A DNA stretch of 11,933 nt from Deltaproteobacteria bacterium. GTDB lineage: Bacteria > Desulfobacterota > GWC2-55-46. The translations under genes and the position numbers were made by a program. Below are positions 2,313 through 11,933 of this stretch, one piece after another. The stretch lies in the NCBI GenBank assembly GCA_030646655.1, contig JAUSLB010000149.1, positions 1 to 11,933 on the forward strand. Direction: 5' to 3'. Within the stretch, counting starts at the first letter, position 1; each line of letters starts with the position of its first letter. The notes under the pieces are model-generated. The model did not search any database, had not been told where the DNA came from, and was given only the letters and a program-made list of their open reading frames with translations.

Positions 2313-3191
2313 CTAAAACAGGGGTTTTTCATGGGCCCTTGAGTAAGCGAAGCTTAAACGCCTTCCGTCCCTGTGGAAGAACCTTCCGTTCGGCCCTCCG
2401 GGAGGATGGGAAAGGAGCATAAGCGCCATGCTCACGATAGAATAGGGGCTTTCTTTTGATGTCCGGTTCATCTCTGTCCGGGCCTCCCCGGCTACAAGCG
2501 AGTTTATCTGTATATCAGCTTCCGGATACCTCTTGGCGCATTCCTCAGCCATTGAAAAAGCCAGGCTGTTAAGAGCGGCCTTTGAGATATTGTAAGGGCC
2601 GAAGCCCGCTGTCGAGGCCCATCCTGCCTCTGATGTTATGAAAAGCGCCTTCGCTTCGCCCCCTGAGATCATGTGCGCCATCGCCTCTTTGGTCAGGAGC
2701 CACTGCGCGGTAACGTTCGTCCTCATAAGCCTCTCCCAGCGCTCAAGCCCTTCATCCAATAGCGGGAAACTCAACGGGCCCGGCGGCAGGGCCGCGTTGT
2801 TTACAAGGCCAGTCAGAAAATGGCAGAGCCCCTTTACCCTTTGGCAGGCCTCTTTGATGCCTTTTTCGTCCGTTATATCGGCCTCTATGACATGGCAGTC
2901 CATAGAGGGGATCGAAAGCGACTCCATCTCCCTTATCGACTCGAAGAGCTTATCCCTCCTCCTGCCTGTAAGAAAGACCTTAGCCCCTGCAGCGGCAAGC
3001 CCTGTTGAGATGCACCTGCCGTAGCCCGTGCCGGCGCCTGTGACCCAGAAGCTTTTGCCTTTAAGCAGCTCCCATCTCTGCCCGGGCAGCCCGAAGCGGT
3101 GGGCCTTCCATTTAAGGGGGTCGGCCTTTTCGAGGACCCCGCGCGCGGCGCCGTGAGCCCTTATATTATTCGATAACCTGCGTAGCGGCAT
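2313..3191 (-). CDS. SDR-family NAD(P)-dependent oxidoreductase
   Basis: The 292-residue product is a classical short-chain dehydrogenase/reductase. Cofactor-binding TGAGTGYG lies at 51-58, the ADITD acidic loop at 104-108, NNAA at 131-134, catalytic Ser187 in ITSEAG, and the YxxxK pair at Tyr200/Lys204 (YNISK). TGRRR (75-79) after the second strand suggests NADP(H) preference (inference). In this setting it may oxidise or reduce a sugar or nucleotide sugar, but the substrate is not readable. A 43-residue N-terminal extension precedes the Rossmann fold. No in-frame ATG or GTG lies between the start and the fold, so the ATG at 3191 is the only plausible start. An AAGGAG lies 12 nt upstream, a rather long spacing. 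The gene overlaps the 3' end of the radical SAM-ankyrin gene by 26 nt, and its stop overlaps the next gene's Shine-Dalgarno. Confidence 0.9.
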   Translation of the reverse strand: MPLRRLSNNIRAHGAARGVLEKADPLKWKAHRFGLPGQRWELLKGKSFWVTGAGTGYGRCISTGLAAAGAKVFLTGRRRDKLFESIREMESLSIPSMDCHVIEADITDEKGIKEACQRVKGLCHFLTGLVNNAALPPGPLSFPLLDEGLERWERLMRTNVTAQWLLTKEAMAHMISGGEAKALFITSEAGWASTAGFGPYNISKAALNSLAFSMAEECAKRYPEADIQINSLVAGEARTEMNRTSKESPYSIVSMALMLLSHPPGGPNGRFFHRDGRRLSFAYSRAHEKPLF

Positions 3192-5688
3192 CTTTCGGGT
3201 CAGCTCCTTTTGAGATGAGGAAGGCCTCAGCGCCCTTTGCGCCTATCATCGTGATGCGGAAGAAGGCGTCTTTAAGGCTGGCCTTATTCTCTATAAGGTA
3301 TTCAGCCGCCTCGATGCGCCCGTGCATCACGGCCACTGAAAGCGGGGTGTCGAAATAATAATTTTTCCGGTTCACATCCGCCCCGCTTTCGACGAGGAGC
3401 TTCGTCATCTCCATATAGCCGTTAAGCGATGAGTGGATGAGGGCGGTGCTCCCGTTTACGTCAACCGCGTCAACATCCGCGCCCTTTGACATGAGAAAGC
3501 CCGCCAGCGTCAGGTTATCGCCTATCGCCGCCGAGATAAGGCAGTTATGCTCGCCGTTGGCCATCCCGTTAACGTCAGCCCCTTTCCCGGCGAGGAATGA
3601 CGCCCACTCGAGGTTGTCCATCGATATGGAATAGACAAACGCATGGTCCACATCGGCGCCGCGCCTTATGAGCATCTCTGAGATCGCCTTGTGCCCGCCG
3701 AGGAGCGAGGCGGTAAGAGGAGTGTCCGAATAGGAGTTCTTGGAGCTCACTTTAGCGCCCTTGTCTATCAATATGCGCGCCTCTTCCTCAAACCCGTAGA
3801 GCGCCGCGTAGAGCAGTAGCGTGCTACCGTGGCCGTCGGCGGAGTCCGCGTCCGTAATGTCTTCTGCGAGCCTCTTCGCCTTAACCCTGTCGTTATTTAC
3901 TATCGCCTCCGCAAAGCTGTAGTTTATGCCCTCAAAGCCTATGCGGGACTTAAGTTTTTCTTTGGCAAGGCAAAGGAGCCTGTCTTTGAAAGCCGTATCG
4001 GCCGTTATGTTCGACGGGTCGTATTTATTGACGGATCTTGGGTTCAGGCAGTATTTATACCGCTCGCACCCGCGGCACGACAGCGGATTGTCTATTATGA
4101 AACGGCGGACGAACCCGGCCGTATCCCCTGACCATATAACTTCAAGCGGGTCATTTTTAAGGTTGCCGATTATTATTTCGTTGCAGAGGTAAACATACCC
4201 GTCAGGGTTTATCTTGGCGAACGTGAAAGGCGAGACGCAGTTATGGTTCATCTCAGGGTGATGGCCGAGCTGGAGGGCGGTGTATTTATTGAAATATGTC
4301 CGCGCCCCCTTGTTCCCTGAGACGACCGCGCCGTCTCTTATGTTCTTTGGGTATTTCGCCTTTAACGGCGTATAGAGGTAATACGGGGCTGTAAGGACTA
4401 CCTTATAGTTATTTTCGATCACGTGTCCGGCAACTTCGTCAAAGAGGCTGTTGGCGTTGTCGGTAACGGGGTCGAGCGATTCTTTAAATAAGGACTCGTC
4501 CTGTATATTCCTTATCACCATGGGGATGAGGCCGAGGCCGTCGAAGCCCGCGCCTTCTGCGAAATCCGCCATCTCCTTCAGCTCCCCGATGTTGCTCCTC
4601 ATAACGACCATGTTTATGAGGAACTGCGCTGTCATTCCCCTAAAGGCCTCTCTGAGCGCCGTTATGTTCTCTCTCACCCTTTCGAACTTGGCCCCGCTAC
4701 GTATCTCCTCATAAGTCTTTTTGACTGGGCTGTCGAACGAGATGTGGATCGAATAGAGATTGCAGGAGGAAAGAGCGCGGATGACGCTCGCGTTCAGGAG
4801 GGTGGCGTTCGTTATTATCGATATCTCGCAGCCGTTATCCGAGAGCGCCTTCACGATGTCGATGAACCCTTTATGGAGCATCGGCTCGTATACCCCGCCC
4901 ATCTGGATAAAACAGTTCTTAACGCCTTTAAGGCTTTCTATCTCGATCCTCTCGGCCTTTTGCGGGGCCATGTAGCTTATGTGGCACATCTTGCATTTGA
5001 TGTTGCACCGGTTCACAAGGTCTATCTCTATAACCTTCGGCGCTCCGTCAAAGCCCTTTACCGCCGGGCTTTTGGAGGCCCTGTAGGGCCTTTCCTCCAC
5101 CCCGTTCCCGTTTACCTTAAACAGCCTAAGCTCCCTTTCTTTAAGCCCCTCGATGCTTGAGTGCTTAAGGAAGTAGTTGAGGAAGAATTCAGACTCCTCT
5201 ATATATATCGCCTTCGGGAAGTCCGGCACCTTTGCCGCGTCCCTCAGTGAGAGCACGAGCTCGTCGTCAGGCATTACCCCTGTGTATATGCCTGAGACGA
5301 ACCCGGGCCTGTCTTTAAAGTAAGGGAGGTTTACCCTGTCTGAGAGCACCGCGAAGTTCCCCGCTTCCGAGAAATTGTCCGAGACGGCCTCTATCCCCTT
5401 GCCCCTGTTCTCGAAGAGTATTATCCTCCTGTCCTCGAGCTTGTATACGTTGACGCACTGCATGAAAAAGGAAAGGTAATAGCCCTTGCGCTCGATATAT
5501 ATCGTCCTTATGTTATCGGGCAGCTTATGTATCCCGTGATAGAACCCGGCTGTCCCGGTTATGGGCGCGTCCTCCGGGAACTTTATGTCCGTCTTCAGCT
5601 CGTCGTGCGTAAGGCTTATCGCCCCGGCGTAGCCGGGCATGTCCTTAAATAAATCAAGGTTCCTCTTATCCCCGAGGAACACGAACAT
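3166..5688 (-). CDS. SPASM-type radical SAM enzyme fused to ankyrin repeats
   Basis: The 840-residue product has three parts. Residues 1-200 are two diverged copies of a ~100-residue domain I do not recognise. Residues about 215-560 form a radical SAM core with CX3CX2C (Cys228, 232, 235; CNIKCKMC) that should bind the 4Fe-4S cluster cleaving S-adenosylmethionine. A SPASM/twitch-like region follows with Cys484, a GX4C ending at Cys502, and CX2CX5C (Cys538, 541, 547); the usual next CX3C is absent. Residues about 588-836 are seven or eight ankyrin repeats (TPLTASLLGGH, GADVD/GADVN turns). SPASM enzymes modify peptides, proteins or small molecules; the target here is unknown. I chose ATG 5688 because AAGGAG lies 5 nt upstream and the duplicated domain begins exactly there. 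An alternative ATG at 5724 has a G-run upstream and overlaps the preceding stop. Confidence 0.9.
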   Translation of the reverse strand: MFVFLGDKRNLDLFKDMPGYAGAISLTHDELKTDIKFPEDAPITGTAGFYHGIHKLPDNIRTIYIERKGYYLSFFMQCVNVYKLEDRRIILFENRGKGIEAVSDNFSEAGNFAVLSDRVNLPYFKDRPGFVSGIYTGVMPDDELVLSLRDAAKVPDFPKAIYIEESEFFLNYFLKHSSIEGLKERELRLFKVNGNGVEERPYRASKSPAVKGFDGAPKVIEIDLVNRCNIKCKMCHISYMAPQKAERIEIESLKGVKNCFIQMGGVYEPMLHKGFIDIVKALSDNGCEISIITNATLLNASVIRALSSCNLYSIHISFDSPVKKTYEEIRSGAKFERVRENITALREAFRGMTAQFLINMVVMRSNIGELKEMADFAEGAGFDGLGLIPMVIRNIQDESLFKESLDPVTDNANSLFDEVAGHVIENNYKVVLTAPYYLYTPLKAKYPKNIRDGAVVSGNKGARTYFNKYTALQLGHHPEMNHNCVSPFTFAKINPDGYVYLCNEIIIGNLKNDPLEVIWSGDTAGFVRRFIIDNPLSCRGCERYKYCLNPRSVNKYDPSNITADTAFKDRLLCLAKEKLKSRIGFEGINYSFAEAIVNNDRVKAKRLAEDITDADSADGHGSTLLLYAALYGFEEEARILIDKGAKVSSKNSYSDTPLTASLLGGHKAISEMLIRRGADVDHAFVYSISMDNLEWASFLAGKGADVNGMANGEHNCLISAAIGDNLTLAGFLMSKGADVDAVDVNGSTALIHSSLNGYMEMTKLLVESGADVNRKNYYFDTPLSVAVMHGRIEAAEYLIENKASLKDAFFRITMIGAKGAEAFLISKGADPKDAATQVIE
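5089..5688 (-). repeat. Duplicated N-terminal domain in the radical SAM-ankyrin gene
   Basis: Two tandem protein-level copies, 5389-5688 and 5089-5358. Copy 1 begins FVFLGDKRNLDLFKDMPGY and copy 2 begins FAVLSDRVNLPYFKDRPGF. Both continue to a second block: TIYIE..GYYLSFF...L.DRRI.LF.N.GKGIE in copy 1 and AIYIE..EFFLNYF...LKERELRLFKVNGNGVE in copy 2. The family is not recognised. Confidence 0.8.
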
Positions 5689-5693
5689 CCCAT

Positions 5694-5699
5694 CTCCTT
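5694..5699 (-). promoter_or_regulatory. Shine-Dalgarno that decides the radical SAM-ankyrin start
   Basis: AAGGAG reads 5699-5694 on the minus strand, 5 nt before the ATG at 5688. It is the strongest ribosome binding site seen near this gene and favours 5688 over the in-frame ATG at 5724, which adds 12 residues and has only a G-run in front. Confidence 0.65.
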
Positions 5700-5717
5700 C
5701 CCGTGCGTTTGAGAGCC

Positions 5718-6647
5718 TCAGCATGGGACAGCCCCCCTTGCCGGCCTCACCGGGCCTTTAAGCCTTAGGGTCTTTATCCCGCTGTTTTCCTGCAACGGCA
5801 GTATGCGCCCGGTCTTGGGTATCTCCATCGCGGTGGTTGACATCCCCTTGCCGTTATTAGGCCCGCAGTAATTATTATCACCGCCCTGATTCGGGTGCCA
5901 GACATGGTAGAGGAAGTGGGTCAGATGGAGCCTGTCCTTTACGCCGGAGTTAATGAGCCTCGCGGTCATCTCGTACGGCCCGCAGATGTGGCCCAAGTAA
6001 TCGGCGTGCTCATCCGCCCCGCCTATCCTTATCAGGTCTTCCCTCATGGCCGAGAGGCAGGCGCCGTAGTTATATGTATGCCAGAGGTCCCTGTCTTCGG
6101 ACAGGCTTGTGGCGGTCCTGTCGAAGCCTGCTGGGACGCCGTCCTTCGCGTTGACGCAGCCGTCGCCCGTGATCTCGTCAACGGGCGGGTAGTTGAAGGG
6201 GTAGAAGGCCTTATTAAAGTTCCTTATCTGCTCGAAGTGGAGCGCGAGGTTGTCGTCCCTTTCAAACTCTTTTATTACGGTCTCGACGAAGCTCGGCCTT
6301 ATGATAGCGTCCGAGTCCATGACAGCCACGATCCTGCCTGAGGAGTTGAGGATGCCCGTGTTATACATCCTGTGCTTGTGGTAGCATTCAGAGGTGTTGT
6401 TATCCATCACTATCCACGTATCTACGGGCGGCGGCACCCCGGCGGATGAGTTCCTCCTTATCATCTCTTTTATCTCTTTCGCCTCCCGGGAGTAGAACTC
6501 TATCCAGACGACCTCGAACCTTGACCTGTCGATCCTCTGCCTGTTAAGGTACTCAAGGGTATGAAAGCTCTCCCTCACGCTCCAGTCGAGCAGTATTATG
6601 CTGACATCGGGCAAACCGGAAAATGTCCTCTTACGCAGGAAGCGCAC
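5718..6647 (-). CDS. GT2-family glycosyltransferase, paralogue of the gene at 1-870
   Basis: The 309-residue product is a cytoplasmic GT-A, family 2 glycosyltransferase. VSIILLDWS lies at 15-23, the DxD motif MDSDAII has DSD at 111-113, GGADEH..DYLGHICGPYEM sits near 209-227, and YHVWHP is near 247-252. Compared with the paralogue at 1-870 it carries a short insertion near 170-188 and a Pro/Arg-rich tail. I chose GTG 6647. It follows a GGGGG (6659-6655) by 7 nt, and it gives the same N-terminal length and the same DSD residue number as the paralogue. A TTG at 6653 overlaps the previous stop as TTGA but has no spaced Shine-Dalgarno. The start lies 2 nt after the B12 radical SAM stop, and the stop is 29 nt before the preferred start of the next gene. 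Donor sugar unknown. Confidence 0.9.
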   Translation of the reverse strand: MRFLRKRTFSGLPDVSIILLDWSVRESFHTLEYLNRQRIDRSRFEVVWIEFYSREAKEIKEMIRRNSSAGVPPPVDTWIVMDNNTSECYHKHRMYNTGILNSSGRIVAVMDSDAIIRPSFVETVIKEFERDDNLALHFEQIRNFNKAFYPFNYPPVDEITGDGCVNAKDGVPAGFDRTATSLSEDRDLWHTYNYGACLSAMREDLIRIGGADEHADYLGHICGPYEMTARLINSGVKDRLHLTHFLYHVWHPNQGGDNNYCGPNNGKGMSTTAMEIPKTGRILPLQENSGIKTLRLKGPVRPARGAVPC

Positions 6648-6649
6648 AG

Positions 6650-9208
6650 TCAAGCCCCCAGAAGGCTTTTGGATGAAACGAAATAAGAAACAGAGTTCTC
6701 AACCTCCCTTATCGAACCGCCCTTGAAAACAAGGCCCCTCTCGTAGCCGTCCGATTGGGCGCGGTTTATATCAAATGGCTGGCCCTGCCGTATGCCGTAG
6801 AATACGCCCTCGGCCTTGATTATGTTGTATCCGTGTAAGCCTTCCCTGATAAGCCGGATATCGGCAGGGTTGTCCCTTTTAAGCCCTGCTATATCCGGGG
6901 CCGAAGGCCTTAAGCCCTTAAGCTCAGGGCATTCTTCCGGGTCATAACCGTAAAACCCGCCGTTGAACTTTACGATATGGAGCCTTCGCTCTTTTGCATT
7001 CTCCCCTTTTGCAATCGCGCCCTCCTCCTCTTGCCCGCAAACGGCATCGGGCCTCGCGCTCCTGCCCGCGCCTTTGCCCTGAAGGACGTCCTTTATCACC
7101 TGCTCCGCGAACGGCCCAACGCCGAAGCCGTGCCTGTGGAGCTCAAGGACAACCCTCTCGAACCTGCGCCTCCTTACCTTGTCGTCTATGCAGGGGTTCT
7201 CGCTGTACCATAAATTGTCAGGCACCATGTGCTGGAACTCTTTCAGTATCTCATTCTTATCCCCCCTGAATTTTATGCCGTACTCCTCGGGGCTCTCCCA
7301 GTAGATGGAGCCTGACATGAGCATCAGCGGGTTTATGTTGGCGACCCTTCCTATGAAGGGCTTATTTTCCGCTATGAGCGAGACCGATTCCGTTATGTCC
7401 TCATCGGTCTCTCCCGGAACGCCCAGTACGATATTGACTTCAGTATATATGCCGGCGCCTGAGCAGTCCTTAAGGTTGCGGGATATCATATCAAGGGTGT
7501 AGCCCTTCTGCTGGAGCCGCAGGGTGTTCTCGCTCCATGCGTCCACGCCGAACCTTAAAGAGACGAACCCCGCCTCTTTAAGCCTGTCGAAAAAAGCGCG
7601 ATCGCTCCCCTTATGAATGCGGAGCTGGCCCGTAAGCTTTATAGTGAGCCTCCGCCTGATTATCTCGCCGCAGATCTCAAGGAGCGCCTCGGGCATGCCG
7701 TTTAGGTCGCTCTCGTTGAACATAAACAGGTCGCAGCCCTGATTGGCGAGGTACTCGAACTCATCGACTACATTTTTCGGCGAGCGTATCCTCCAGAAGA
7801 ACCTCTCGGCGCAGAACCTGCATCTGCTCCACCTGCACCCCCGGCTCGCTATTATGGGCGTCAGCTGGTAGTGGTTGAAATTACGGTAAACATCGAGCCC
7901 GTACCATTCGTACCTCGGCATCTCGATGGAATCGAGGTCTTCCGGCATCGGGCCGGGCCTGAATTTTACGCCGGCCGGCTCGAACCTCGACATGACCCCG
8001 GCAATACCCGTGGGCCTTTCGCCCGAAGCGAGCCTCTTTACGAGGTCGCCCACTATGAGGTCGGCCTCGCCTATGACCATGTAGTCGGCCTCAGGGAAAG
8101 CGAGCCTGCCGATAAAGGGGTGATAGCAGCTGTAGCCTCCTGCAAGGATGACGGTATCCGGCAGGGCCTCCCTTACCCCCTTTGCCACCTCTTTCGCGAA
8201 TTTTATGTTGCATGCCTGAATGGAAAAGCCCGCTATCTTCGGCCTTGCCTCAACTATCGCCTTTATGGTCTCCTCGATCTCGGGCCTGAAGAAATCTATG
8301 GTGTCCTGCCTCTGCCAAAGCTCGTAGTTCTCGGCGAGCCACGGGTCTTCGGGCAGCCTTTTCCCTGAGGGCGTCAATACCGCCTCAGGCCCGTCAAAGA
8401 GGCGGTGCGCATGGAACCTGTGGTAGGCGATTATGTCGAGGTCTATCGTCTGGAACCTTACCCCTGCCTTTTTTAACGCGTTATTCACATACGCAAGGCC
8501 GTTCGGCATGAACGCCATGTTCCTCGAGGGGCTGTCTATAAGGACCATATCGAGCCCCGGCTTAACGGATATTTCAGGTATATCTATGGGGTATATCGAG
8601 CCATACTCCGGTATCCACGCGCTGTCCGGGACATGCACCCTCGCTATGTCCGCTATAACTTCCGGCGAGATTACGGATACCCCGTATTTAAGCCCTTTCT
8701 CCATCCTCCAGCGCTTTACAGCCGAAAGCTCCGAGAGGAATACGTTCTTTATCGAATACGGTATCTCGGACGGGGCGATTACAGGGATGCCTTCGATAAG
8801 GCCGCCCTTTGACCGGGGGTCGTCGTCGATAATGAATTTTATCGCATGCTTTAAGGAAGGTGCATGCTTAAGAAGATAATCGAAGAGCTTCCCCCTGCCG
8901 TAAAAGGCGAGGTCATGTTTTTTGATAAGGTGGACGCCGAGGAGCTCAAGGCATTTTATCTCAGCCTCCCCCGGCTCGTCCTTAAAAAGCCTGTAAGGGG
9001 AAAAGCGCACCTTCCCGCCCCTCACCTTTATCGGCCGCCCTCCGGGGCTTACATCCAGCGTTACTCTGATAGGGTCCATTCTGCCTCCGGCGGTCTTATC
9101 CGCGCCCTTTAGCGTCTTTGAGATGAATCCTTTAAACCTTTTCGGCATGTATTTTTTTATCTTCCTGAAGGCCCAGCTTGACCTCACGCTATCCCTCTGC
9201 CTCTCCAT
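6650..9208 (-). CDS. B12-binding-domain radical SAM enzyme with C-terminal repeat modules
   Basis: The 852-residue product begins with a basic segment (11-34). A Rossmann-like domain follows (about 95-165; FYGRGKLFDYLLK, then FIIDDDP and IEGIPVI), resembling N-terminal domains of sugar acyltransferases. The B12-binding-type domain (about 218-400) has AGFSIQACN and VILAGGYS and ends YMVIGEAD. It lacks the DxHxxG motif, as many radical SAM relatives do. The radical SAM core (about 450-700) has the cluster motif CX4CX2C (Cys458, 463, 466), and VNIVLGVPGET at 591-601. After a low-complexity linker (711-740) come two degenerate copies of the module also found in Wzt and the methyltransferase. The family includes C-methyltransferases and other C-C or ring-forming enzymes; methylation of a sugar carbon is possible but only inferred. 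ATG 9208 lies 2 nt after the methyltransferase stop; its Shine-Dalgarno (GGGG) is weak. Confidence 0.88.
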   Translation of the reverse strand: MERQRDSVRSSWAFRKIKKYMPKRFKGFISKTLKGADKTAGGRMDPIRVTLDVSPGGRPIKVRGGKVRFSPYRLFKDEPGEAEIKCLELLGVHLIKKHDLAFYGRGKLFDYLLKHAPSLKHAIKFIIDDDPRSKGGLIEGIPVIAPSEIPYSIKNVFLSELSAVKRWRMEKGLKYGVSVISPEVIADIARVHVPDSAWIPEYGSIYPIDIPEISVKPGLDMVLIDSPSRNMAFMPNGLAYVNNALKKAGVRFQTIDLDIIAYHRFHAHRLFDGPEAVLTPSGKRLPEDPWLAENYELWQRQDTIDFFRPEIEETIKAIVEARPKIAGFSIQACNIKFAKEVAKGVREALPDTVILAGGYSCYHPFIGRLAFPEADYMVIGEADLIVGDLVKRLASGERPTGIAGVMSRFEPAGVKFRPGPMPEDLDSIEMPRYEWYGLDVYRNFNHYQLTPIIASRGCRWSRCRFCAERFFWRIRSPKNVVDEFEYLANQGCDLFMFNESDLNGMPEALLEICGEIIRRRLTIKLTGQLRIHKGSDRAFFDRLKEAGFVSLRFGVDAWSENTLRLQQKGYTLDMISRNLKDCSGAGIYTEVNIVLGVPGETDEDITESVSLIAENKPFIGRVANINPLMLMSGSIYWESPEEYGIKFRGDKNEILKEFQHMVPDNLWYSENPCIDDKVRRRRFERVVLELHRHGFGVGPFAEQVIKDVLQGKGAGRSARPDAVCGQEEEGAIAKGENAKERRLHIVKFNGGFYGYDPEECPELKGLRPSAPDIAGLKRDNPADIRLIREGLHGYNIIKAEGVFYGIRQGQPFDINRAQSDGYERGLVFKGGSIREVENSVSYFVSSKSLLGA
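6689..6985 (-). repeat. Two degenerate FNIV/FYA modules ending the B12 radical SAM protein
   Basis: Copy 1 (6842-6985) reads LHIVKFNGGFYGYD; copy 2 (6689-6835) reads HGYNIIKAEGVFYGIRQG followed by PFDI. They share the order N/H-I-[IV], K, FYG with the better-conserved copies in the methyltransferase and Wzt genes, but the LGxxD part is weak. The match is at protein level and was judged by eye. Confidence 0.6.
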
Positions 9209-9210
9209 GA

Positions 9211-10611
9211 TCAGCCCCGCGCCGCCTTTAATGCCGCCATCTCTTTCTCAAGCGACTTTACCTTTGAATCCCTTTCTGAAACCTCTTTTTCGAGGGCCTT
9301 CACCTTCTGGTTAAGCGTCATCAGCTCTTTACGCGCCTGCCTCGCGGATAAAAGGTCGATCAGTTCCTTGGCAAACTGGTGCGTCTTTGCTATCACGCAC
9401 TTGGAGGTTTTTATGAGCTCCTTTAGCCTTTGCTTTTCTACGGCCCTCAGATCCGTCGGGCCGAGCTCCTGAGAAAGGGCGTAGAACATGCGCTTGTAAG
9501 CGATTATATTGAACCCCCTGTAGCCCTCTTCCACAAGCTCAGGGAAGAGGTGGGACAGACCGTCAACGATATTTTTTGTCCCAATTGGGTCCTTTGCCTC
9601 GGCGCAGAGCCCGAGGCCCTTGTATTTATTAAGCTCGCTTTCGCTGACCGATGTGATGTCTATATTACCGAGCGTCTGCGACATGGCGAAGAACCTCTCT
9701 CCGTACTGTATGAGATTGAACCCCTTATAGGAGTCCCAGAGTACGGGGCTGAGACAAGGGGATATCTCCTCGCCTATCGTCTTAAGGACCTCTTTAAGGG
9801 TCTTTGCCCTGACAGCGTCCGGCATCTTTCTTAAGATATCCTCTGTCACGGCGGCGTTGCCGCGCGAGCGCGGGATGGCGTAAACAAATTTTCCATAGCG
9901 CGTGATATTGTAATTCCCGGTCACGCCTATCGGGGGGGGCGCGAACTGGCCCTTTTGAAGCGGGTATTCAATATCTGTCGGCGCCCAGCCGCCGTCCTTC
10001 GCCCTTACGCTCCAGATGTTGTAATCGATAGAGTAGTCCTCGAATGCCCTGCCCACCGCGAGCACTACCCCGCAGTGGATCGACTCGTGGAAGTTCTCGT
10101 CCCTGCCCTCGTCAAGGAACTCAGGGTCGAAATCCGAGATCCTGCCGTCGCAGTCGTGGCCGCAGAGTATCCCCCCGTCCCTTTTTACAAGCGGCGAGTA
10201 TTTCTCTATGTCCATCGAGACCTGCCCGTACCTGTGGTCGCCGTCTATGAAGACAAGGTCGAAGTCGTTCCGCTTAAAAAGGCCTGCCGTCTCTTCAGAG
10301 CGCGCCCTTATGGGGATTACCGTATCCTCAAGCCCCGCGCCGCAGACCCTCCTCCAGAAAAAGGAATAGACGTCCTTTTTCTTTGCCACCTCGAAAAGCT
10401 CTGTCCCGGGGCTCCCTTTCCACCAGTCGATGCACACGAGCTTTCCGCCGAGGGCCTTCGCGGCCCTGCCGAGGATGAGCGCCGTATCGCCGCACCAGCT
10501 CCCTATCTCTAAAAATAAGCACCCCTGCCTTGCCGCGGAAGCGGCAAGGGCCGAGAGCACCACCTCCTGCTCCTCGCCCTGAATCTGCCTCTCCCTTATC
10601 TCTATATCCAT
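9211..10611 (-). CDS. Class I SAM methyltransferase with three repeat modules and coiled coil
   Basis: The 466-residue product has an N-terminal class I methyltransferase domain of the Methyltransf_24-like kind (about 12-190). Motif I is FLEIGSWCGDT (33-43), Asp62 ends strand 2 (VCIDWW), and FDLVFIDGDHRYG (117-129) and GGILCGHDC (146-154) follow. Three copies of the FNIV/FYA module come next (about 231-280, 295-352, 364-421). The end is a coiled coil of about four heptads (Leu433, Val437, Leu440, Val444, Val451, Leu454, Met458, Leu461). The position after wzt and the methyltransferase-plus-coiled-coil layout recall WbdD of E. coli O8/O9a, which methylates the glycan end to stop growth. Here the coiled coil is short and there is no kinase domain, so this is only an analogy. 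ATG 10611 is the only in-frame start after the stop upstream; no normally spaced Shine-Dalgarno is seen, and a 13-bp duplication covers the start. Confidence 0.88.
   Translation of the reverse strand: MDIEIRERQIQGEEQEVVLSALAASAARQGCLFLEIGSWCGDTALILGRAAKALGGKLVCIDWWKGSPGTELFEVAKKKDVYSFFWRRVCGAGLEDTVIPIRARSEETAGLFKRNDFDLVFIDGDHRYGQVSMDIEKYSPLVKRDGGILCGHDCDGRISDFDPEFLDEGRDENFHESIHCGVVLAVGRAFEDYSIDYNIWSVRAKDGGWAPTDIEYPLQKGQFAPPPIGVTGNYNITRYGKFVYAIPRSRGNAAVTEDILRKMPDAVRAKTLKEVLKTIGEEISPCLSPVLWDSYKGFNLIQYGERFFAMSQTLGNIDITSVSESELNKYKGLGLCAEAKDPIGTKNIVDGLSHLFPELVEEGYRGFNIIAYKRMFYALSQELGPTDLRAVEKQRLKELIKTSKCVIAKTHQFAKELIDLLSARQARKELMTLNQKVKALEKEVSERDSKVKSLEKEMAALKAARG
9349..9921 (-). repeat. Three FNIV/FYA modules in the methyltransferase gene
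   Basis: Module 1 (9772-9921) reads GNYNITRYGKFVYAIPRS. Module 2 (9556-9729) reads YKGFNLIQYGERFFAMSQ then TLGNIDI. Module 3 (9349-9522) reads YRGFNIIAYKRMFYALSQ then ELGPTDL. Modules 2 and 3 continue into a helical tail with a Cys and a V/I-D-x-L end. Module 3 is closest to the single copy in the Wzt gene, including a 19-nt identical stretch (9515-9533 and 11745-11763). Confidence 0.8.
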
Positions 10612-10629
10612 CCTGAATATCCATCCTGA
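10604..10629 (-). repeat. Perfect 13-bp tandem duplication over the methyltransferase start codon
   Basis: TCAGGATGGATAT occurs twice back to back on the minus strand, 10629-10617 and 10616-10604. Each copy contains AGG directly followed by ATG. The downstream ATG (10611) opens the methyltransferase. The upstream ATG (10624) is out of frame and would give only a 98-codon compositionally biased peptide. Confidence 0.9.
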
Positions 10630-10918
10630 GCGCGCCTGCGAAAAAAATAAAGCCCGGTTATTTTAAACAGGAGGGTGCTGACTTGACCCCGGATCGCCGG
10701 CGGGATTTGAAATGGCCCTGCCGCCTGAAGAAGAAGCCCGAAATCCTTCCCGGCTTCTTTCTAACAGGATGCGGAAAAAGTCCGTCCTGGCCTTTTTCCG
10801 CTACGGCTTAGCCGAAGTGAATTCGGCCAAGCCTCACAAATTGCTCGATTTTTCAGCCTCGCAATTTAGCAATCCGTCCATGTATTGCTTAACAGGTTGC
10901 TTTTTTTAGCAACCTGTT
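10612..10918 (-). ncRNA. Candidate structured 5' leader of the methyltransferase operon
   Basis: The stretch between a predicted start site near 10918 and the methyltransferase ATG holds a chain of inverted repeats, read on the minus strand. A: 10919-10908 with 10901-10890, 12 bp, A6 loop. B: 10889-10884 with 10873-10868, 6 bp. C: 10867-10861 with 10844-10838, 7 bp. D: 10833-10822 with 10816-10805, 12 bp with one G-U. E: 10801-10792 with 10780-10771, 10 bp. F: 10759-10752 with 10738-10731, 8 bp. A weaker G pairs 10725-10721 with 10703-10699. In D the single imperfect pair is G-U in minus-strand RNA but A-C in plus-strand RNA, which favours a minus-strand transcript. No known riboswitch class is recognised. 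It could instead be a palindrome-rich mobile remnant. Confidence 0.5.
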
Positions 10919-10919
10919 A
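10890..10919 (-). repeat. 12-bp hairpin at the predicted transcript start
   Basis: TAACAGGTTGCT (10890-10901) and its exact reverse complement (10908-10919) flank a 6-nt loop, all T on the plus strand and all A on the minus. No U-tract follows on either strand, so it is not a standard intrinsic terminator. It begins within a base or two of the predicted start site and could be a 5' stabilising stem, an operator or part of a mobile repeat. Confidence 0.65.
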
Positions 10920-10923
10920 GAAA

Positions 10924-10951
10924 ACTATAATCCAAGTTTTCCGGCTGTCAA
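10924..10951 (-). promoter_or_regulatory. Sigma70-like promoter for the methyltransferase operon
   Basis: On the minus strand a consensus -35 TTGACA (10951-10946) is followed by a 16-nt spacer and TATAGT (10929-10924), which matches 5 of 6 -10 bases. Start is predicted near 10917-10918, giving a leader of about 305 nt. It lies in the only long intergenic gap, 57 nt or more after the wzt stop, where an independent operon promoter makes sense. Confidence 0.6.
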
Positions 10952-11008
10952 ATATAGGGGGCTGGTTTTTTGGCGGGACCGTTAAACGGCCGGGATCCTG
11001 TAAAATTG
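10952..11008. other. Short spacer between the wzt stop and the promoter
   Basis: This 57-nt stretch holds a small CCGTT/AACGG palindrome near 10980 and an A/T run. No convincing intrinsic terminator follows the wzt-like gene, so read-through into the downstream operon is possible. Confidence 0.4.
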
Positions 11009-11933
11009 CTAAAAGGATTTTGCCGGGATAGAGGGGAACTCCTCGAAAGAGGTCTCGAACCGGGCAAAACCGTCGAACTCCCCGTCTGTTTGGACTTTTA
11101 TATGGATAAGGTCTTTCCTGTTGTCGATAAGAAGGTCCATATCCGGCCTCTTTTCAGCAACGCCTAAGTTTATGAAAAAATCCCCGCTGTTAGCGCTTAG
11201 CCTTATCGACCATTTTACCATGTTGACCGCGCCCGCTGCCGCGGGCGCGATGTCGATCCTGCACAACCTCGTATTCGTCCCATAGACGATCACCCCGTCA
11301 ACGGTGGTTATGGCGAAGCCGAACATCGGATGGTCCACTTTTTCGTAAAAGACCACTCTCATATAGATATCGACCACCGTGCCTGAGCGGACATTCACAG
11401 GGTCGAGCACGCCTCCTGAGGCTACGAGGTAATCGATTACTTCCGCCCTCCTGTCCCCGTGCCTGTACTCGTTTTTATTGTAGCTCTTCCTCTTCGGGCA
11501 ATTATCGGATAAAGGGGCCTCCTCGAAAAACCGCTCAAGCCCGTCCTTCCCCTCCACGATAGTCTTATGCCTCGATTCCATCCTGTCAACCGCCCTCAAG
11601 ACATCCTCGTGAGACAAGCCGACGGCGCAGACGTCCTGCCCGGTCAGCCTGTTTATGCTGTCTTCGCTCGCGCCCCCTATATCAAAGCTCCCCAGCTCCT
11701 GAGAGATTGCGTAGAACCTCGGGCCGAAGTGCACTATGTTAAAGCCCCTGTAGCCCTCTTCCAGAACAACAGGCTCCGGCGCCGGGTCATCTATATTATT
11801 CGAAAAGAGCATGTCGATATAGCGGTTCACTACGGATTTAGGCTCCCCCCTGTCTATGATCCTGCCCCCTTCGAGCAGGATCGCGGAGTCGCAGTGCCTT
11901 ACGACAGCCTCTGTATTATGGCTTACGAAGAGG
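11009..11933 (-). CDS. wzt: Wzt-type polysaccharide ABC transporter ATPase, 5' part cut by window edge
   Basis: The frame is open through the right edge, and 307 residues are visible to the TAG at 11011-11009. The first 45 residues are the end of an ABC ATPase: LFVSHN with the switch (H-loop) His, CDSAILLEGGRI, then VVNRYID, typical of Wzt/TagH-like exporters. Residues about 61-118 hold one copy of the FNIV/FYA module, which is not usual at this point. Residues about 150-307 match the Wzt C-terminal glycan-binding beta-sandwich (HGDRRAEVIDY, GFAITTVDGVIVYGTNT). In characterised O8/O9a systems this domain recognises a modified chain end and couples termination to export at the inner membrane. 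Walker A, Walker B and signature motifs lie outside the window, and the partner permease Wzm is not seen. An internal GTG (11830) is not the start, because homology continues upstream of it. Confidence 0.88.
   Translation of the reverse strand, partial: LFVSHNTEAVVRHCDSAILLEGGRIIDRGEPKSVVNRYIDMLFSNNIDDPAPEPVVLEEGYRGFNIVHFGPRFYAISQELGSFDIGGASEDSINRLTGQDVCAVGLSHEDVLRAVDRMESRHKTIVEGKDGLERFFEEAPLSDNCPKRKSYNKNEYRHGDRRAEVIDYLVASGGVLDPVNVRSGTVVDIYMRVVFYEKVDHPMFGFAITTVDGVIVYGTNTRLCRIDIAPAAAGAVNMVKWSIRLSANSGDFFINLGVAEKRPDMDLLIDNRKDLIHIKVQTDGEFDGFARFETSFEEFPSIPAKSF
11579..11752 (-). repeat. FNIV/FYA module inserted in the Wzt protein
   Basis: Reads YRGFNIVHFGPRFYAISQ then ELGSFDI, followed by a helical tail with one Cys and an AVDRM end. 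It separates the ATPase domain from the Wzt C-terminal domain and is nearly the same as module 3 of the methyltransferase, at both protein and DNA level. Confidence 0.8.

Follow-up and report, generated by a model that had tools for sequence, protein, structure and literature searches.

A small protein module of about 52-60 residues, unnamed in the libraries we searched, is repeated in three proteins of one bacterial surface-glycan locus and recurs in many other enzymes, with 93 host open reading frames (ORFs) in 33 genomes in total. The locus lies on a contig of 11,933 bases from a Deltaproteobacteria bacterium (assembly GCA_030646655.1, contig JAUSLB010000149.1; this whole contig is called the window below). 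One copy is found in the export ATPase Wzt, three in an S-adenosylmethionine (SAM)-dependent methyltransferase and two in a B12-binding radical SAM enzyme. The module, its predicted fold, its hosts, their clustering and its cassette nature in Wzt are established by computation. Judged from the sequences, the module may be an accessory domain that binds the glycan, or the lipid-linked glycan, of its locus, a reading to which we give a little less than an even chance.

All six copies lie on the minus strand, where a first-pass annotation made from the DNA letters had placed them, and the three proteins that carry them are indeed chemically unrelated. The Wzt copy (11579-11764), situated between the ATPase domain and Wzt_C, scores 101.1 bits (E 5.3e-29). 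The methyltransferase copies score 100.4 bits (copy 3, 9349-9534, whose last helix continues into a coiled coil), 98.0 bits (copy 2, 9556-9741) and 64.2 bits (copy 1, 9769-9921, short and diverged). Both radical SAM copies had been called degenerate; this holds for copy 1 (6857-6994), which retains mainly the N-terminal hairpin and reaches 43.9 bits with a profile of which it forms part, whereas copy 2 (6680-6850; 79.5 bits) is full. When the parent genome was searched at E up to 1 with a profile built from the six copies, six matches resulted, all inside the window.

Could these resemblances have arisen by chance? An independent profile was made of 169 modules from other genomes, after removal of every row that came from the window or from its orthologous loci L032 and L033, its rows having originally been recruited via searches seeded with the window copies. 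With this profile, the Wzt copy scored 52.7 bits, methyltransferase copies 3, 2 and 1 scored 56.0, 44.1 and 36.1 bits, and the second and first radical SAM copies scored 44.4 and 7.0 bits; the best of 2000 shuffles per copy reached, in the same order, 7.0, 3.8, 8.3, 5.1, 15.1 and 5.9 bits. Among 500 non-host ORFs of the loci the top score was 3.7 bits, in a control that is partly circular because non-hosts were defined by an earlier, related profile. The degenerate radical SAM copy was detected in L032 (13.2 bits) and L033 (9.3 bits) by one profile and disappeared with the final one. By these sequence scores, five copies are strong, chance similarity being ruled out for them by the independent profile and the shuffles, and the first radical SAM copy is marginal.

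The core originally proposed, Y-x-G-[FY]-N-[IL]-[IV] with a helical tail, is better represented by a fuller consensus: [ED]-[GS]-Y-[KR]-G-[FY]-N-[IL]-[VI]-x(5,6)-[FY]-Y-[AG]-[ILV]-[PS]-Q-x-x-G-x-x-[DS]-[LI], after which come a helix, a short strand of the form [CVI]-x-x-[AG]-x-[ST] and, at the C-terminus, another helix (E-V-K-x-x-[IV]-D). Across 184 aligned modules (193 were found, 188 were kept at 20 bits or more, and 184 remained once L066, the same DNA as L167, was removed), conservation amounts to 83% for Asn, 87% for Gly, 78% for Tyr, 95% for [AG], 90% for [FY] and 52% for Gln. The AlphaFold2 (AF2) model of a single module, methyltransferase copy 3, based on 68 rows, has a mean predicted local distance difference test score (pLDDT) of 89 and a predicted template modelling score (pTM) of 0.72, with strands at residues 2-5, 8-13 and 16-21, a helix at 34-42, a strand at 46-49 and a helix at 52-66. 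In the model of the whole methyltransferase (m949955ae8b18; 13 rows, mean pLDDT 69.9, pTM 0.45), the same order of strands and helices appears three times, with block means of 82-95 for copy 3 and of 42-76 for copy 1, which is thus of low confidence. The modelled copies, those of the methyltransferase, are therefore predicted to fold alike, as one small fold of three strands, a helix, a strand and a helix.

The earlier impression that the module is not a named family was upheld in Pfam, NCBIfam and PHROGs at the sensitivity used. When 68 modules were scanned singly at E up to 0.01, no family covered the module; stray matches concerned one member in Pfam (0.0027), one in NCBIfam (0.0043) and one member each for three PHROGs families (0.0006-0.007). 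A match of PF13715 to the whole three-module L068 protein (E 8.8e-7) was rejected as chance, with 29.3 bits against a cut-off of 32.2 and no single stretch passing. Searching PDB sequences with the module gave chance-level matches only (best E 0.069, a designed barrel), and neither Foldseek on PDB and BFVD nor VIA-align returned a significant structural match. LysM and SPOR were absent from the structural matches, and neither had a Pfam match among the 68 modules (LysM at E up to 0.01), results with which a distant kinship is still compatible. Two polytopic hosts had no sequence relative in the PDB. A phage or plasmid origin was rejected, as none of 13 pattern matches in viral contigs was confirmed as a module and tblastn with the three-module L068 protein found no relative in phages or plasmids. 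Within the open-access library searched, no paper contained the module's motif strings, and titles and abstracts showed nothing relevant on a domain shared by Wzt, radical SAM enzymes and glycan loci. The module is thus unnamed in the libraries searched; shared accessory modules are already a known kind, and it is the host range that is unusual here.

The first-pass annotation had presented the module as common to the three proteins of the window. The sharing stands, but the module is not confined to them: glycosyltransferases, sulfotransferases, SPASM enzymes, acyltransferases, polytopic proteins and lipoprotein-like proteins carry it too. The 93 hosts, classed by Pfam and by BLAST to labelled hosts (many labels are BLAST-based, and some of those for family-2 and family-1 glycosyltransferases, GT2 and GT1, and for sulfotransferases rest on Pfam scores under the cut-off), comprise 18 GT2, 12 B12 radical SAM enzymes and one truncated, ten Methyltransf_24 proteins, eight sulfotransferases, eight SPASM enzymes, eight Wzt, six GT1, four PF04464 proteins, two F5/8C proteins, two of acyltransferase-3, one Methyltransf_11, another GT1-like protein and 12 ORFs with no class. 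Protein searches added pyruvyltransferase, metallophosphatase and additional methyltransferase hosts. Forty-four hosts carry one copy, 22 carry two, 21 carry three and six carry four to twelve. Outside this tally, which was completed before L186-L189 were fetched, a SPASM-like radical SAM ORF of 1504 residues (L187:10380-14891) holds 16 modules at a spacing of about 70 residues. In another ORF, L034:1786-3960, two modules are fused to GT2 and HD_5 domains.

The module is rare and patchy across the genomes searched. The 17 loci in which lineages were recorded belong to Deltaproteobacteria, Nitrospirae, Nitrospinota, Omnitrophota, Sedimentisphaerales, Cyanobacteria and Verrucomicrobia. Matches were found in 9 of 59 relatives (two of these being weak; E up to 0.01) and in 4 of 395 genomes of the window's own phylum (E up to 0.001); in the phyla of the other carriers they were found in 9 of 245 genomes for Nitrospirae (E up to 0.0001), 6 of 285 for Omnitrophica, 3 of 77 for Nitrospinota, 2 of 294 for Sedimentisphaerales, 2 of 292 for Spirulina (the second marginal) and 1 of 151 for Verrucomicrobia, counts that include the centre genome, each picked for having the module, and are thus not unbiased rates.

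Where a genome has several matches, they tend to lie together. In 17 of 26 such genomes, a set that mixes E limits of 0.01, 0.001 and 0.0001 and includes several fragmented assemblies, all matches fall on one contig within 33 kb, a count favoured by short contigs such as the window's own and that of G053 (3,119 bases); in the other nine they are spread over two or three contigs. The single-contig genome G940 has six matches in 10.1 kb out of 4.69 Mb, and G979 has matches on three contigs of 240, 116 and 44 kb. The proximity to glycan genes and to wzt and wzm, raised in the first-pass annotation, was recovered: a Wzm or Wzt homologue is present in the fetched stretch of 22 of the 33 genomes, and glycan-type hosts predominate among those classified. 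Among 105 module-free neighbours from 15 stretches, the best 25 of 109 families include Radical_SAM (13), ABC2_membrane (7), adh_short (7), Epimerase (6), NTP_transferase (5) and Glycos_transf_2 (5), so that nucleotide-sugar enzymes, Wzm and glycosyltransferases are represented. Dehydrogenase E1 (PF00676) occurs in four of the 105 and GHMP kinase in four, hinting at unusual precursors.

In Wzt, the module is an optional cassette. The distance from the end of the ATPase alignment to the start of Wzt_C is 98-112 residues in six Wzt with the module and 38-52 in ten without it, a difference of about one module. The B12, GT2 and SPASM-type families likewise have members with and without it. Such optionality in Wzt, B12 and GT2 homologues would also be expected if the module were a passive linker or stabilising cassette without a common ligand, passed between adjacent genes by recombination, and the location of the first module in the C-terminal half of 70 of the 93 hosts and the tolerance of degenerate copies point the same way. 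We nevertheless regard a passive cassette as improbable, given the conservation of Asn, Tyr, Gly, [AG] and Gln described above, the constancy of position and host class across lineages and the concentration in glycan-type loci (with G1329 as an exception, and with only part of the loci annotated).

Another important point is on which side of the membrane the hosts reside. Only 16 of the 93 contain a strongly hydrophobic 19-residue window, and most thus lack a strong membrane segment. In a scan of 160 proteins with 317 modules, which include duplicates (for example, P0058 = L168:7855) and so do not count distinct proteins, modules follow an N-terminus that looks like a signal or anchor segment in P0048, P0058, L166:9900 and L068:9653, and they come after the final predicted membrane segment in several proteins that have 6-12 of these. 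A lipobox pattern is matched by P0058/L168:7855 only, i.e., by one protein. In G440, this lipoprotein-like gene lies about 70 bases before a PF04464-type host, and SPASM and B12 hosts lie on the same contig within 33 kb. In both L168:7855-9741 and P0048, which is also lipoprotein-like, discoidin (F5/8C) and metallophosphatase domains accompany the module. By these crude predictions, modules apparently occur on both membrane faces, which suggests that a shared ligand is probably present on both; a glycan or its lipid carrier would fit, and pure docking among cytosolic enzymes becomes less likely.

If the module is an accessory glycan-binding domain, it would hold the growing glycan, or the end of it that is linked to the lipid carrier, in the way that LysM or carbohydrate-binding modules serve other enzymes. 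Glycosyl-, sulfo-, methyl- and radical SAM enzymes would thereby be kept on the same substrate, together with the ABC exporter and certain proteins beyond the membrane. In the window, the modules would tie the coiled-coil methyltransferase and the B12 enzyme to chains passed to Wzt, and the methyltransferase might act as a chain terminator, having a methyltransferase domain, a coiled coil and an adjoining Wzt with a carbohydrate-binding module (CBM). Arrays that reach 16 copies, spaced by about 70 residues, would suit avidity for a polymer, and the conserved Asn, Tyr and Gln are compatible with carbohydrate binding and no more; judged by strand alternation, these three (methyltransferase residues 368, 377 and 381) would share one face of the sheet. 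We infer this entire course of events, including the glycan as ligand, chain-ending by the methyltransferase and the membrane face of the unusual hosts. Beyond this, and with somewhat less confidence, we propose that the module may represent an unrecognised domain family that marks ABC-exported glycan assembly lines, a common handle on both membrane faces by which the growing chain is passed on and counted.

Several observations weigh against glycan binding of this kind. The membrane-side calls come from a crude hydropathy and charge script, which leaves many polytopic hosts ambiguous. The fetched stretch shows no Wzm or Wzt homologue in 11 of the 33 genomes, and in G1329 (9.4 Mb) a lipoprotein-like host (L166:9900-10919) neighbours a prephenate dehydrogenase and a Gfo/Idh/MocA gene, with no obvious glycan locus. 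Wzt and B12 enzymes of the same kind exist without the module, which is therefore not essential to their chemistry. Moreover, for the 130 of 184 modules that allow both comparisons (clades being grouped by hand and the two candidate sets unequal in size), the nearest module belongs to the same host class in another clade in 95 cases and to another class in the same genome in 32, with three ties. Mean scores are 54.6 for the first kind of pair, 49.2 for the second and 42.1 for pairs of neither kind. SPASM modules depart from this pattern in the opposite direction (9 against 3), and B12 modules are even (10 against 12). Since modules track host class, the architectures are mostly old and inherited with their hosts, and the ligand is then one shared by all loci or one specific to the host. 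A sugar code that differs by locus is weakened accordingly: by these sequence comparisons, a glycan-binding module would require a ligand common to all loci. Recent within-locus homogenisation is rejected on the same counts, as the in-locus resemblance it predicts is refuted.

The tracking of host class would also fit a partner-specific dock, by which the enzymes would be brought together at the exporter through contacts of the modules with one another or with a single scaffold, as in other assembly lines. At least two host classes share the module in 21 of the 33 genomes, some proteins consist of modules only or nearly so (L068:9653, L169:3766 and L186:15136), and other protein-interaction repeats (tetratricopeptide repeats, ankyrin repeats and coiled coil) are encoded at these loci. 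For Klebsiella O4 and O7, excerpts of PMC11231755 describe multiprotein complexes that include a coiled-coil terminator. Even so, docking seems to us rather unlikely: modules apparently lie on both sides of the membrane, beyond the reach of one scaffold, copy number ranges from 1 to 16, and no universal scaffold gene was noticed in the loci, although no systematic search for one was made. A ligand that is a universal pathway element rather than a sugar, such as undecaprenyl diphosphate or the membrane surface, would explain the occurrence on both membrane faces as well as the weak locus-specific divergence; most hosts, however, are devoid of a predicted membrane segment, and we consider such a ligand very improbable. 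The jobs proposed in the first-pass annotation, namely mutual docking, binding to a scaffold or binding to one glycan, still appear to be the right list.

The window itself is a surface-glycan locus of the ABC-export type. It forms one whole contig of a genome assembly of 1.68 Mb that is 75% complete, and all its genes are read from the minus strand in the order wzt end, methyltransferase, B12 radical SAM enzyme, GT2, radical SAM/SPASM enzyme with ankyrin repeats, short-chain dehydrogenase, glycosyltransferase with tetratricopeptide repeats and GT2. The wzt ORF (11009-11932) is a 3' part only, cut by the contig edge; it encodes the end of the ATPase domain, the module and Wzt_C (PF14524, E 1.1e-19, residues 154-291), and its orthologue L032:7979-9487 possesses the ATPase domain PF00005. 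L032, from a genome of the same genus, carries the same series of genes from wzt through to the B12 enzyme; there, wzm (PF01061, L032:9495-10292) precedes and adjoins wzt, and cytochrome b and Rieske genes lie farther out. In our case, the contig ends at wzt, and the window contains no wzm.

The methyltransferase (9211-10611; Methyltransf_24, PF13578, E 4.8e-21) carries its three modules and, at about residues 421-466 (9214-9351, minus strand), a C-terminal coiled coil. Hydrophobic residues occupy 11 of 12 a/d positions in the best heptad register among those scanned (residues 420-464), and the modelled helix spans residues 411-464. The nearest fold to its methyltransferase domain is MeT1 (6g80, E 2.5e-7), with other O-methyltransferases scoring close behind. 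MeT1 methylates the 1-OH of methylmannose-polysaccharide precursors, according to excerpts of PMC9883506, and by analogy this likeness may serve as a weak pointer to the role of the domain.

The B12 radical SAM enzyme (6650-9208; PF04055, E 3.7e-16; PF02310, E 5.8e-9), with its two C-terminal modules, is followed by a GT2 without the module (5718-6653; PF00535, E 3.8e-6). This GT2 is 51% identical to L061:9105-10439, a two-module homologue, so that modules are present in some homologues at other loci. It also shares 50% identity with the GT2 at 1-882 (PF00535, E 8.7e-7), which likewise has no module and loses its 3' end at the contig edge; the two are probably duplicates, by their sequences. 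The radical SAM/SPASM enzyme (3166-5724; PF04055, PF13186, PF12796) is homologous to module-carrying SPASM hosts elsewhere (29-38% identity). Its ankyrin repeats sit at the C-terminus, the place of the modules in homologues of other loci, and its residues 1-220 resemble, by eye, two related segments. The short-chain dehydrogenase (2313-3191; PF00106, E 5e-34) has a close homologue in 14 fetched loci, and 13 of these also encode a B12 radical SAM enzyme, which is present at three loci that lack the dehydrogenase. The two enzymes probably act sequentially on one unusual sugar. A family-2-like glycosyltransferase with tetratricopeptide repeats (931-2304; PF07719, E 4.7e-28; PF00535, E 0.0018, below cut-off) completes the set.

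With the module profile as a marker, a set of surface-glycan loci can be searched for, many of which belong to lineages that are poorly cultured, and unannotated ORFs can be tied to one pathway. If glycan binding is true, the module would be a small sugar-binding domain of a new kind, and Wzt proteins with and without it would offer a natural comparison; if docking is true, it would show how enzymes and exporter are held together. Either outcome would be relevant to the coordination of chain length and modification with export.

LysM and SPOR are small alpha/beta glycan-binding modules that are repeated and found on many enzymes. The module resembles them in size, repetition and the multitude of host enzymes, although its predicted topology appears to differ from these folds. 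Docking domains of multi-enzyme assembly lines provide a second parallel, since there, too, one non-catalytic module is common to the enzymes of a gene cluster; however, docking domains are not known to occur on both membrane faces or in arrays of up to 16, as is apparently the case here. In Wzt of ABC-dependent O-polysaccharide export, the module shares its protein with Wzt_C (PF14524) but is a separate alpha+beta cassette placed before it, missing from 10 of the 16 full-length Wzt_C-bearing Wzt compared. Excerpts of PMC11231755 state that Wzt CBMs recognise the chain end ahead of export, and, together with those of PMC3482155, that in the Klebsiella and E. coli systems terminators of the WbdD type (methyltransferase, kinase and coiled-coil ruler) determine chain length, the cap being read by the Wzt CBM. 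The kinase domain of WbdD is present in O9a and absent in O8 (excerpts of PMC3482155); in the window methyltransferase, no match to a kinase domain was found at E up to 1. Like WbdD, this protein adjoins wzt and has an N-terminal methyltransferase domain and a C-terminal coiled coil; in contrast to WbdD, it bears three modules in between and a short coiled coil of about 45 residues, and capping by it is, by this analogy, putative.

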